This document shows positions 12,120 to 15,652 of a stretch of 40,251 nucleotides of DNA, one piece after another (the first letter of the stretch is position 1; each line of letters begins with the position of its first letter). Below the pieces are notes generated by a model, which saw only the letters and a list, made by a program, of their open reading frames with translations, searched no databases and was not told where the DNA came from. The position numbers and the translations under genes were made by a program. Origin of the DNA: Nitrospira sp. (GTDB lineage: Bacteria; Nitrospirota; Nitrospiria; Nitrospirales; Nitrospiraceae). The stretch lies in assembly GCA_025936075.1 (NCBI GenBank), contig JAICUC010000003.1:1-40251 (forward strand). The letters are read 5' to 3'.

Positions 12120-12758
12120 CTATTTATCGGCCGGACGGCGAATGACCAAAGCCATGCCATCGACCAGAGACCAGGCCAAAGATTGCGCATGGTTGACAGA
12201 GAGGGTCAGTCGGAGGTGAGCCGTGGGCTCGGATGAGCGGTCCATTAACAATCTACCCGTCCAGTCCTTCACATTTCGCCACCCCACTTTTCCTAGCAGA
12301 AGCGCACTTTGGAAGAGATTATCGCTTTCGACGGATGGAACCACCGTGACGCTCAAAGAGGGAGTGAAGGACAACACGTAGTCGGCCGGCATATCGGCGA
12401 GAGAAATGGGCTCCTGCTCGACTTCTGCACCGGGTTCAACCTTTCGTCTGACGACCTGAGGCCGTGCCACCAATCGGTGGATCCCTTTCAGATCCTTCCA
12501 TGATTCGGCAGACCAGACCATGATAGGGATTTGGTGGAGGCCGACTCCACGACCCTTAATGGAAATCGTACTTCCACTCAAATCAATCAAAAGATATGTT
12601 TGAGGACGCGCAGCCAGCTTGAGTTCTTCCTCAAGCACCCGCATTGCCTCTTTCAATTCATTGGGGTTATTGAGATTCAGGTCGGGAAAGACCTCGATAT
12701 CCTTTCCCCAACTTGGTGTGGTGAAGGCAAGAAGAAAAAGAATGGCGCAGAGGTTCAT
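12120..12758 (-). CDS. Secreted protein with a YkuD-like N-terminal hairpin but no catalytic motif (212 aa)
   Basis: Not assignable to a named family. A signal peptide is clear (MNLCAILFLLAFTTPSWG, cleavage near residue 18), so it is periplasmic. A short helix (ELKEAMRVLEEELKLAA) is followed by PQTYLLIDLSGSTISIKGRG. That stretch mimics the opening of the adjacent L,D-transpeptidase (QPYILVDTARNRLYVK) in position and pattern. The HG...GCIR catalytic stretch of YkuD enzymes is absent. The rest is beta-rich with a conserved-looking LRLTLSVNHAQSLAWSLVDG. It is the last gene of the lipoprotein/L,D-transpeptidase cluster, 27 bp after the preceding gene, so a role beside those enzymes (regulator or chaperone-like partner) is a reasonable inference only. 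Confidence 0.8.
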   Translation of the reverse strand: MNLCAILFLLAFTTPSWGKDIEVFPDLNLNNPNELKEAMRVLEEELKLAARPQTYLLIDLSGSTISIKGRGVGLHQIPIMVWSAESWKDLKGIHRLVARPQVVRRKVEPGAEVEQEPISLADMPADYVLSFTPSLSVTVVPSVESDNLFQSALLLGKVGWRNVKDWTGRLLMDRSSEPTAHLRLTLSVNHAQSLAWSLVDGMALVIRRPADK

Positions 12759-12785
12759 GGGTAATATCTGCGCGCTCTTGAGGGA

Positions 12786-13424
12786 TCAAAAGATCATGAT
12801 CGGTGTCCCTACTCGAGCGAGCTTGTAGACACCTTTAAGGTCGCTGTCATTGAGCCGGATACATCCATGTGTCACGTTTTTCCCCAATAAACGAGTATAG
12901 AGCGTCCCATGGATGAAATAGCCTTTGCCGAATCCCAAGGCATATTCTCCGAGGACCCCTTGTTCGGCGCGGTCGGCGGCATTTTGCGGTACGGCGAGTC
13001 CCTCTTCGATGAATGCCCAGTCGGGCTTGATCCATGTGGGATTGGTCAATTTCGACTTGACGAGAAACTCTCCTCGTGGCGTATCGAAAATCCACTGGCT
13101 GTTACCTTCGCCGGGCTTATCGAGAATTGTTCCGCTACCGGTCGAAGCAATCGCATCGAGGACTACTTGCTCTTGGTGCTTCACATAGAGTCGGTTCCTG
13201 GCCGTATCGACTAAGATGTAAGGCTGGGTCGGCATGAGGTGGGACAGCTGTTTGGAGAGTATCTTATACCGGGCTTGCAATGTACGAAGATCGGCTTTGT
13301 CCTGCACAGCGGGTTGGTGAACGGCTGCGGAGTTTTCGAGCGCCGCGTGATTGGTAGTAAAGGCGCTTATGACCACTAATAGGAGTAAGACGACTGCTGA
13401 AGTTGCAAGGAGGAGTCGTCCCAT
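12786..13424 (-). CDS. L,D-transpeptidase (YkuD domain)
   Basis: Periplasmic cysteine transpeptidase that makes 3-3 peptidoglycan cross-links or attaches lipoproteins to meso-DAP. 212 aa. An N-terminal membrane anchor or signal spans about 4-22, then a short helical linker. The YkuD domain runs from about 68 to the C-terminus: QPYILVDTARNRLYVK, TPRGEF, then the full catalytic signature IHGTLYTRLLGKNVTHGCIRL with H172, C188 and R190. The domain ends GTPIMIF, the usual terminal strand. It is placed 10 bp after the YafK-like gene and 27 bp before the degenerate relative, all co-directional. Whether it cross-links glycan peptides or anchors the cluster's lipoprotein cannot be read from sequence. 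Confidence 0.94.
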   Translation of the reverse strand: MGRLLLATSAVVLLLLVVISAFTTNHAALENSAAVHQPAVQDKADLRTLQARYKILSKQLSHLMPTQPYILVDTARNRLYVKHQEQVVLDAIASTGSGTILDKPGEGNSQWIFDTPRGEFLVKSKLTNPTWIKPDWAFIEEGLAVPQNAADRAEQGVLGEYALGFGKGYFIHGTLYTRLLGKNVTHGCIRLNDSDLKGVYKLARVGTPIMIF

Positions 13425-13434
13425 CAGTTTACGC

Positions 13435-14568
13435 TCAGATTTCGTCTCTACGTTGGACCAGTTCAGACAAGGCCAGAGCCACCGCGTTCTCTTTCGTCAA
13501 GGCACCGACGATCGTGACCGGTGTCCCGACAGAGACGCCCTCGTAGAGAACAGCCATATTCGGATTATCGAGCATAATGCATCCAAGGGTCTGGGCCAAC
13601 AGTTCGTTGTCGGCTCCATGGATCTCGATAAGGCCCCCTATGCCTTTGGCAGGACCGATCTTTCCCGACTTCTTCGCAAGGTCGAACCGCCGACGATCTT
13701 CGGCATTGGGATAATCCAGATCCAGGGCTCGATAGAATTGCGTCTGCCCTTGACCGCGCTTGTCCGTCACGCGATAGCGTCCTTCCGGTGTCGCTCCGTC
13801 CCCTTGGAACCGTTTTTCCAGCATGCCGTTGAACCCTAACCGGACGGGATATGATAGCATCTTCCGCCCGCTCTTGTAGAGAGTCAATTCTCGGTCTGCT
13901 TTACTCACCACGATAGCCGTTGATTGATGGATTCGTGACCAATCGATAGTCTGCTTGGCTAAGCTCTGCCAATAGGCGATCCGGCTCTCGTCGGCGTAGC
14001 GCCCCAATTCTTGGCTGAGTAATAAAACTTGAGCCTTGAAAGCGGAATCCGCTTTCTCTGCCGCTTGCATGGCTCGTTGGAAATCTTTCTGTTCGAAGAA
14101 GGAACGGGCCTGTTTGACAAGAAGACCCGTCTGAACGGCTTTTTCTCCTAGGAGGATACGTCCATCGATCGATTCGACCTTCGAGATAATCGTATGGAGC
14201 CGTTCTTCAAGGCGATCCACTTTAGCCTGTGCCGTGCGATGCTGCGAGGTGTGCCTCTCGTGCAGCTGGGACACGGTGCGCTCGCCCATGATGTAGAGCC
14301 GGCGGAGTTCATTCTCAAGATCACTCGATTCCCATGGCCATGTGATTAGATCATCGTCCAATTGGACGCGTGCTTTGAGCGAGACCCATTGGCGAACAAA
14401 CTGCCCGTACTCCTCAGGCGCAGCTTCCGGAGCCCGCAATGCGATTAAATCTTGATCAATGGCTTCAAGGGCTACAAGGAGGTCCGGCGGAACGGCTTGA
14501 ACGCAGCCCATTAAACAGAGAATGCAGATAACCGCAGCAAGCGTTTTATGTATCTGATCAAGCGCCAT
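13435..14568 (-). CDS. YafK/DpaA-like L,D-transpeptidase-fold protein, probable lipoprotein (377 aa)
   Basis: N-terminal lipobox-like ICILCLMGC (Cys22; Met at -2 is unusual), then about 190 residues of helical, coiled-coil-like sequence. A YkuD-fold domain runs from about 216: STAIVVSKADRELTLYKSG, QGDGATPEGRYRV, FYRALDLDYPNAEDR, then IEIHGADNELLAQTLGCIML with H317 and C330. The GDGxTPEG and YPN..D patterns are those of YafK (DpaA/LdtF), which in E. coli detaches Braun lipoprotein from peptidoglycan. As in YafK, the Arg after GC-I is missing (Met332 here). It lies between the Lys-ended lipoprotein (8 bp upstream) and the canonical transpeptidase. The hydrolase-versus-transpeptidase choice is inference. 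Confidence 0.88.
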   Translation of the reverse strand: MALDQIHKTLAAVICILCLMGCVQAVPPDLLVALEAIDQDLIALRAPEAAPEEYGQFVRQWVSLKARVQLDDDLITWPWESSDLENELRRLYIMGERTVSQLHERHTSQHRTAQAKVDRLEERLHTIISKVESIDGRILLGEKAVQTGLLVKQARSFFEQKDFQRAMQAAEKADSAFKAQVLLLSQELGRYADESRIAYWQSLAKQTIDWSRIHQSTAIVVSKADRELTLYKSGRKMLSYPVRLGFNGMLEKRFQGDGATPEGRYRVTDKRGQGQTQFYRALDLDYPNAEDRRRFDLAKKSGKIGPAKGIGGLIEIHGADNELLAQTLGCIMLDNPNMAVLYEGVSVGTPVTIVGALTKENAVALALSELVQRRDEI

Positions 14569-14576
14569 GCCGTGCG

Positions 14577-15188
14577 TTACTTTTTCTTTGCGGGTTTTCC
14601 TTTTCCCACCTTCGCAAGGGCGTTCTGTATTTCGACTGACACGCCTTGGCTCATGTCGTGAATAGCCTTTGCCTGGGTTTGCGCAGCAGGGTAATCTTCT
14701 TTGTCGATCGACGCCTGAACCTGTTTCAGTAACGACTTCAGCCCTTCCACGTCGTTCTTAATGGCCTCCACCGCCGCACGGTCTTTTCCGACCGGTGCCT
14801 TGGCGACCAAATCTTGCGTCGCTTTCACCGCCTCTTCGGCGACTTGTTGAGCTTGCAAGGCTGCTGCTTTGGCCTCTTCCTTTTTTTCAACCGAAGCCGC
14901 CTTGATCCGTTCACTGTCGGCTTTGGCCGAGGCAGATAGTTGTTGTGCCTTGCCGTAGTCCCGAAAGAGTGTGAACTTTTCGTCCTGATCGGCGACTTCT
15001 TTCCGCAATGCGGCAAGGGTACCTTCTAGCTTGGCGTACTCATCGGCGCTATATGTGGCAGCGCCGCTTTCCTGCGCATCTTTGAGAGCCTTTTCCGCGT
15101 CTTGGATCTGCTGAGTAGGGGGCTCCGCACATCCGGCGATCACAACGAGAGTCAAGAAAAGAGAGACAAGGGATGCTTTTCTCAGCAT
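14577..15188 (-). CDS. Coiled-coil outer-membrane lipoprotein with Lys-rich C-terminus (203 aa)
   Basis: Type II signal with lipobox VIAGC (Cys20). The +2 residue is Ala, not Asp, so Lol sorting to the outer membrane is expected. The mature protein is almost entirely Ala/Glu/Lys/Gln-rich heptad-like helix (EKALKDAQES, KKEEAKAAALQAQQVAEEA). A SmpA- or TolA-like helical rod is likely; the E-A-D-K composition also resembles DUF4398-type lipoproteins. The extreme C-terminus is basic (KGKPAKKK), so a free terminal lysine is present, as in Braun lipoprotein. It is the first gene of the cluster, with a strong SD (TAAGGAGG, nine bases before ATG) and a 464-bp intergenic region upstream. Confidence 0.9.
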   Translation of the reverse strand: MLRKASLVSLFLTLVVIAGCAEPPTQQIQDAEKALKDAQESGAATYSADEYAKLEGTLAALRKEVADQDEKFTLFRDYGKAQQLSASAKADSERIKAASVEKKEEAKAAALQAQQVAEEAVKATQDLVAKAPVGKDRAAVEAIKNDVEGLKSLLKQVQASIDKEDYPAAQTQAKAIHDMSQGVSVEIQNALAKVGKGKPAKKK

Positions 15189-15652
15189 ACGGGGAATCCT
15201 CCTTACAGGTTCTATCCATGGACTTTGGTCAATCGGATTCTTCCTTCATCTTAATGTAGAAGCCCGTCATCGACAGCCGGCATTACTCTTCAAAAACCAT
15301 TGAGACTATTTCAAGTATGCGCCAGCTTAACAGACTTGAACCGTCAGGCATACTAGCACGGCCCAAACATGCAGCAAGCTCGGTGCCACTCATAATCGTC
15401 ATTGTCGGATAAAGATTCAATCTATTTTGCATATTTATGAGAGATTGATGATCTTTGTGCACCCGATTTTTGTGGCATTCTGGTGACAGGAGGCAAAAGC
15501 GCCTCAACGCCGCGGATGATGAAGGACTGATGTTGGATAATCTTTTATATACCTGCCAGAGGCGGCATGAAATTGACAGGTCCAAGTCCCTCCCCTATAA
15601 TTCGCCGTTCATGTGAATCGACCTATTAAAACCGAAGCAATGGAAGGGAACT
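15189..15652. other. Divergent intergenic region (464 bp) between envelope cluster and rpmH
   Basis: Holds the leftward promoter and leader of the lipoprotein cluster and the rightward rpmH promoter. The ORF 15283-15585 has no SD and no protein-like pattern and is taken as chance. I looked for DnaA boxes (TTATNCACA) because the following genes are origin-proximal in many bacteria, and found no convincing cluster. Confidence 0.6.
15573..15601 (+). promoter_or_regulatory. Perfect sigma-70 consensus promoter of rpmH
   Basis: TTGACA at 15573-15578, a spacer of exactly 17 bases, and TATAAT at 15596-15601. This matches the sigma-70 consensus at all twelve positions. It sits 51 bases before the rpmH ATG, so transcription should begin near 15608 with a leader of about 45 nt. 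Strong constitutive expression of the rpmH-rnpA start of the operon fits. Confidence 0.88.

Follow-up and report, generated by a model that had tools for sequence, protein, structure and literature searches.

A four-gene operon of Nitrospirota points to a new form of the system tying the outer membrane to the cell wall

The Braun lipoproteins (Lpp/OprI) are single rod-like helices of about 58 residues, which form trimers. In Escherichia coli, Lpp is accompanied by the ErfK-type L,D-transpeptidases LdtA-C and by DpaA (LdtF, YafK), a hydrolase that lacks the transpeptidase Arg and has an essential Lys. The LD-carboxypeptidases Csd6, Pgp2 and Bd1075 are YkuD hydrolases, which likewise lack this Arg and conserve a Lys in L1. 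A precedent for L,D-transpeptidases using lysines other than the C-terminal one comes from Coxiella LimB and Legionella Lpg1810, both reported to be peptidoglycan-bound via a non-terminal Lys (PMC12274547, PMC11841132). Here we describe four adjoining genes, LPP, LDTF, LDT and REL, on the minus strand (15188-12120) of a 40,251-nucleotide stretch of Nitrospira sp. (GCA_025936075.1, contig JAICUC010000003.1; the window), which suggest a new version of the system tying the outer membrane to the wall. Their features are:

14577-15188, minus strand: LPP, 203 amino acids; signal ...VVIAGC|AEPP, lipoprotein Cys20; helical, with a Lys-rich C-terminal tail ending PAKKK
14784-14795, minus strand: PxGK loop of LPP (P132-K135), between helices 79-130 and 137-162
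14580-14588, minus strand: C-terminal KKK of LPP (residues 201-203), predicted to be disordered
13435-14568, minus strand: LDTF, 377 amino acids; signal ...LMGC|VQAVPP; YPNAEDR...IEIHG...TLGC; DpaA/YafK-like YkuD lipoprotein, presumed hydrolase (eraser)
14017-14505, minus strand: LPP-like helical N-terminal domain of LDTF (residues ~22-184), from hhalign against LPP
13579-13626, minus strand: LDTF active site, Glu315, His317 and Cys330 (Lys252 codon at 13813-13815)
12786-13424, minus strand: LDT, 212 amino acids; L,D-transpeptidase, HG...VTHGCIRL with His172, Cys188 and Arg190; presumed writer
12855-12863, minus strand: codons of LDT catalytic Cys188 and transpeptidase Arg190
12120-12758, minus strand: REL, 212 amino acids; catalytically dead YkuD paralogue (pseudo-transpeptidase)

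Like the E. coli system, the locus combines an outer-membrane-type lipoprotein with lysines, an ErfK-type L,D-transpeptidase and a DpaA-like hydrolase without the transpeptidase Arg and with the essential Lys, but it places lipoprotein and enzymes in one operon and adds a pseudo-transpeptidase. LPP is unrelated to Lpp; it consists of several helices, its internal PxGK loop is invariant, and its terminal Lys is not conserved. The Nitrospira hydrolase, unlike DpaA, is a lipoprotein and carries a fused LPP-like domain. From Csd6, Pgp2 and Bd1075, LDTF differs by Glu315 in place of the Trp of the D-Ala pocket, by its N-terminal domain and by having no extra C-terminal domain after YkuD. LimB and Lpg1810, whose precedent Lys135 or Lys193 of LPP would require, are different proteins, for which the available text describes no dedicated eraser or pseudoenzyme operon. 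The proposed chemistry is the known one of Lpp/Ldt/DpaA; new are the unrelated lipoprotein, the domain fused to the presumed eraser, the conserved pseudo-transpeptidase, the single phylum-wide operon and the coupled loss of catalytic sites. No paper on such a module was found in literature searches.

We give an even chance to the reading that the four genes form a phylum-wide module, by which an outer-membrane lipoprotein is fastened to peptidoglycan and set free again, with LDT as writer, LDTF as eraser and REL assisting or regulating LDT. LDT would join the meso-diaminopimelic acid of the wall to a Lys of LPP by an amide bond; the acceptor need not be terminal, and the candidates are Lys135, which is invariant in the PxGK loop, Lys193 and the lysines of the tail. 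LDTF, anchored in the same membrane, would be brought to LPP by its own LPP-like domain and would hydrolyse the bond between LPP and the wall in the manner of DpaA, while REL, a dead copy of LDT, may be a regulatory or docking subunit of the latter. Whether LPP becomes covalently linked to peptidoglycan we regard as evenly balanced. The sequence evidence pointing to attachment and release consists of the conserved gene order, the DpaA-type residues of LDTF, coupled losses, a rise of Lys towards the C-terminus of LPP and a separate Ldt/Lpp/DpaA-like cluster in other Nitrospirota.

Of these, the coupled loss of Cys330 and LDT seems to be the best evidence for a writer and eraser pair. Cys330 is kept in 147 of the 154 LDTF sequences spanning the site; the seven without it belong to four g12 genomes, to G335 and to one frameshifted gene counted twice. 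Wherever LDT exists the Cys is invariant; three losses of it are seen, all in lineages without LDT (g12 with its sister G373; G335; G423). Wider sampling of the family gave 28 g12 genomes, in which Ser (27) or Gly (1) replaces the Cys, as Ser does in G373. The sampled g12 genomes contain no LPP, LDT or REL, and no further YkuD gene was found in the single-contig g12 genomes G113 and G190. At the G373 locus LDT and REL are missing, and LPP survives with both PxGK and the Lys tail gone. G335, too, has no LDT or REL, its LDTF carries Gly for the Cys and Ala for Glu315, and its LPP has neither PxGK nor a Lys tail; since G335 is placed with the intact lineage L119 (Shimodaira-Hasegawa-like approximate likelihood ratio test 96, in a quick tree with long branches), its Cys loss is independent. 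In the g14 genomes G423, G425 and G409 the module is decaying: all three have a broken LPP and a deleted LDT, REL is absent or a remnant, and the LDTF reading frame is still open; in G423 (L233) a remnant of REL is left, and Ser stands in place of the LDTF Cys. Taken together, this pattern suggests that LDTF catalysis is required only as long as LDT exists.

An earlier note, made from the letters of the window, had described four co-directional genes with gaps of 8, 10 and 27 bp, among them a canonical HG...HGCIR transpeptidase, in a lineage without E. coli-type Lpp, and had called for a search of gene order in Nitrospirota. The open reading frames, their coordinates and the gaps were confirmed, and Pfam finds YkuD in LDT (1.7e-20) and LDTF (5.7e-18), with no significant match for LPP or REL. 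The host is a nitrite-oxidising bacterium, with Nitrospira sp. metagenome-assembled genomes and N. moscoviensis as close relatives. In this genome (84% complete) no YkuD-domain genes other than LDTF and LDT were found, and the same holds for several 99%-complete congeners, including the single-contig G022 and G024. Both LPP and LDTF begin with a lipobox signal peptide, in which the Cys is followed by Ala and Val, respectively; the sorting rule by which both would reach the outer membrane is that of E. coli and may not be that of Nitrospirota.

Profile searches covered 346 sampled Nitrospirota genomes, whose loci were then read for gene order. Nearly all Nitrospira have the same four-gene order and almost the same gaps, as far as their contigs allow, and outside the genus the order LPP-LDTF-LDT-REL was found at 43 loci of nine family groups (f1, f3, f7, f20, f23, f24, f31, f32, f33), among which LPP and LDTF identity falls to 27-33%. 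LPP homologues occur in 112-117 of the genomes (by profiles) and REL in 93, essentially never without the module. The f3 genomes contain a duplicated set, LPP1-LDTF1 lying apart from LPP2-LDTF2-LDT-REL, and at the f3 loci L129, L130, L131 and L176 there are LPP-LDT pairs without LDTF or REL. As the order is kept genus-wide and phylum-wide, the arrangement is more than chance; the module is phylum-wide in Nitrospirota, which does not imply exclusivity to this phylum, other phyla having been searched less deeply. It is highly improbable that the four envelope genes are functionally loose and held together by operon structure only: the short gaps and the lone survival of single genes (LDTF in g12, solo LPP paralogues) would fit, but the order persists across the phylum at 28-33% identity, and gene loss is accompanied by changes in the LPP motif and in the catalytic sites of LDTF and LDT. 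The g12 genomes (L189-L192, L199-L226) retain the dead LDTF at full length and well conserved after the loss of LPP, LDT and REL. Solo LPP paralogues of Nitrospiraceae (L120, L126, L163-L170) are distant from any YkuD gene, and several end in ...HA or HV.

Among solved structures LDTF is closest to DpaA (PDB 8ikr, identified as such by its sequence and by PMC10653827), and next come the LD-carboxypeptidases Bd1075, Pgp2 and Csd6. For the roles of residues we relied on DpaA, where Lys83 is essential, Tyr109 is the aromatic residue, and Tyr131 and Met133 line the cleft (PMC10653827). Lys252 is found at the position of Lys83 in 157 of 157 LDTFs, and the position of Tyr109 is aromatic (Phe278 in 129, Tyr in 25). 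Arg is missing two residues after the catalytic Cys, where this LDTF has Met332 and others Ala, Ser or Gly or one of a few further residues; the D-Ala-pocket Trp present in Bd1075, Pgp2 and Csd6 is also absent, and Glu315, which stands there, is invariant unless the Cys is lost. Because LDTF keeps the essential Lys and the aromatic residue and has neither Arg nor Trp, we place it nearer DpaA: it is presumed to be a YkuD hydrolase closer to DpaA than to the carboxypeptidases, not a proven DpaA. The curated DpaA family NF040599 matches 26 of 26 phylum-wide LDTFs (best E 4.2e-11), that of the window with 31.8 bits (E 7.5e-8), far below the 365-bit cut-off.

Nitrospira cells are helical or curved, and the module could instead edit stem peptides for cell shape, LDTF being an LD-carboxypeptidase like Csd6, Pgp2 and Bd1075, LDT a 3-3 cross-linker, and LPP and REL accessories. 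Those three enzymes are indeed the next-best solved relatives of LDTF after DpaA, and the lack of the transpeptidase Arg is common to DpaA-like enzymes and LD-carboxypeptidases (PMC8263019); however, LDTFs that have the active-site Cys carry Glu in place of the carboxypeptidase-specific Trp, and shape editing would not lead one to expect loss of LPP lysines upon loss of LDT, so that we consider this role quite unlikely.

Sequence comparison indicates that in LDTF a YkuD hydrolase is preceded by a fused LPP-like domain. With phylum-wide alignments, LPP and the N-terminal half of LDTF match over 173 columns (hhalign, 98.5%, E 2.2e-15), whereas genus-level profiles gave only a partial match; the LPP profile also matches distant LDTFs directly. 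The presumed eraser is therefore built on the scaffold of the lipoprotein itself. Mature LPP has about 184 residues, and its AlphaFold2 (AF2) model (predicted local distance difference test, pLDDT, 84) contains several helices (24-40, 48-69, 79-130, 137-162 and 166-195), the longest of 52 residues. LPP is thus predicted to be a multi-helix bundle, not a single long rod; the description of a lipoprotein almost all helix and ending PAKKK was correct, while the rod three times longer than Lpp is not borne out. Foldseek with this model found nothing below E 0.2, the best lead being the N-terminal helical domain of Borrelia BB0323 (E 0.21), and a PDB sequence search found only an N-terminal (signal-region) match to LPP20. 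Membership in the Braun lipoprotein family was rejected (NF040598, 16.3 bits, E 0.011, against a 43-bit cut-off). DUF4398 (PF14346), a family of helical lipoproteins, matches 11 of 26 LPPs (E up to 1, best E 4.6e-5) and not that of the window; as these matches are weak, membership is not claimed.

The LPP-like domain of LDTF would also suit a non-covalent scaffold, the strongest rival to attachment and in our view possible, if clearly short of even. LPP would then not be a substrate; from the outer membrane it would dock or activate LDT and LDTF. Its PxGK loop would bind the enzymes or the wall and its basic tail would bind peptidoglycan electrostatically, while the two enzymes edit peptidoglycan, LDT making 3-3 links and LDTF cutting or trimming. 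A domain shared with LDTF is what a docking module should provide, and the multi-helix fold, with its weak likeness to the Borrelia domain, agrees with it, as does the behaviour of the LPP lysines: the PxGK loop, not the terminal Lys, tracks LDT, and the terminal Lys is dispensable. On the other hand, LDTF lacks the D-Ala-pocket Trp and keeps DpaA-type residues, and the Lys enrichment of LPP outside the genus peaks at the very C-terminus, where Lys frequency increases from 0.25 (position -6) to 0.71 (position -1).

A Lys is found among the last five LPP residues in 56 of 69 sequences in the genus and 47 of 48 outside. Tails that have lost the terminal Lys (ending RRR, RQ, RN, KQ, GA or KKA) all occur with intact enzymes. 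We considered whether the tail could be a by-product of the LDTF ribosome-binding site and rejected this: a terminal Lys is equally common at gaps of at least 25 bp (11 of 18) and at shorter ones (41 of 69), so the tail is no such artefact, and AAA/AAG usage is similar in tail and body. In the phylum-wide alignment Lys135 and Lys193 are invariant, Lys135 also in operon-type LPPs. Where an LDT gene is adjacent, 101 of 105 LPPs have the PxGK loop, and the four that do not are second copies in f3 genomes; of the LPPs without such a neighbour, 4 of 26 have it. In these alignments it is the Lys135 loop, rather than the extreme C-terminus, which tracks LDT. We consider it rather doubtful that the module is a new outer-membrane tether of Nitrospirota via internal Lys135, at the end of the long helix of a folded LPP, with a writer LDT that has an obligate pseudo-transpeptidase subunit and an eraser carrying an LPP domain.

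Several observations weigh against attachment and release, and the proposal of the note is supported in part. Conservation of the terminal Lys had been named beforehand as a point on which this proposal could fail, and it is not conserved (37 of 69 in the genus, 34 of 48 outside, versus 16 of 16 in the Lpp-like proteins of other Nitrospirota), with repeated loss beside intact enzymes. In a Nitrospira subclade (L007, L010, L012, L013), a one-base shift near the LPP stop turns the Lys end into ...TRHGA, so that LPP overlaps LDTF, and this frameshift to a GA end is common to several species. Lys-tailed LPP paralogues occur in G231 and G246, where no YkuD gene was found, so that attachment cannot be concluded from a Lys tail alone. 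Phylogeny-aware contrasts of PxGK and LDT are about five independent ones, 3.1 in the same direction and 0.1 in the opposite, too few for p<0.05. DpaA Tyr131 and Met133 are absent from LDTF, which has a variable residue and the conserved Glu315; of the YafK hallmarks first seen in LDTF, the kinship with DpaA, the missing Arg and the essential Lys remain, and the family score and these two residues do not agree. G409 (L235) and G425 (L234), relatives of G423, are decayed and without LDT but still have the LDTF Cys; their LDT loss is probably recent, and Cys loss seems to follow that of LDT. Finally, the four LPP-LDT pairs in which LDTF is missing, all of one f3 group, retain PxGK and have no Lys tail: the proposal of writer and eraser in one operon gains from the coupling of the LDTF active site to LDT, and such pairs speak against it.

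In LDT, the site HGHGCR is found in all sequences spanning it except these four pairs, where Gln replaces the transpeptidase Arg (HGCIQ instead of HGCIR), so that the chemistry there may differ. REL, first noticed as a motif-less relative, aligns with LDT over 154 columns in phylum-wide comparison (hhalign, 95.4%, E 1.8e-8), genus-level profiles showing only weak similarity (26%). Its AF2 model (pLDDT 76) has L,D-transpeptidases as all top Foldseek matches (probability 1.00, best E 2e-4, template modelling score only 0.3-0.4), and no conserved Cys or His was found in the alignment of its homologues. Profiles and predicted fold agree that REL is a true degenerate YkuD protein, a pseudo-transpeptidase.

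No Lpp/OprI protein above the cut-off was found in Nitrospira, as had been supposed. Other Nitrospirota families (L239-L242, L245-L264) contain genuine Lpp/OprI-type alanine-zipper lipoproteins, which end in Lys in the 16 readable cases (one wrong-strand reading and three unread were left out). Most of their genes adjoin one for an L,D-transpeptidase (motif ATNGCIR or VTHGCIR), and in many cases the gene of a DpaA-like YkuD lipoprotein (WTKGCIAV) is there as well, for example at 1980-5174 of L239 (G206). This cluster likewise encodes writer, Lys-ended lipoprotein and DpaA-like enzyme together, but with a genuine Lpp and different enzyme subfamilies; it was not found in sampled f1 genomes, and five genomes contain both it and the four-gene module. 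Eight OmpA-domain matches in the present genome make the module unlikely to be the sole outer-membrane anchor.

DpaA-like enzymes occur in many Lpp-less bacteria, and their substrates have been stated as an open question (PMC8263019). Here such an enzyme is tied to one lipoprotein and one transpeptidase by gene order, domain sharing and coupled active-site loss, which makes this question directly testable. If attachment and release were true, a deep-branching phylum including nitrite oxidisers would gain a defined outer-membrane fastening and a conserved pseudo-L,D-transpeptidase.

Beside the module, a perfect sigma-70-type consensus (TTGACA-17-TATAAT) lies at 15573-15601 on the plus strand and points away from it; the genes downstream of this consensus resemble rnpA, yidD, yidC and mnmE (named by eye).

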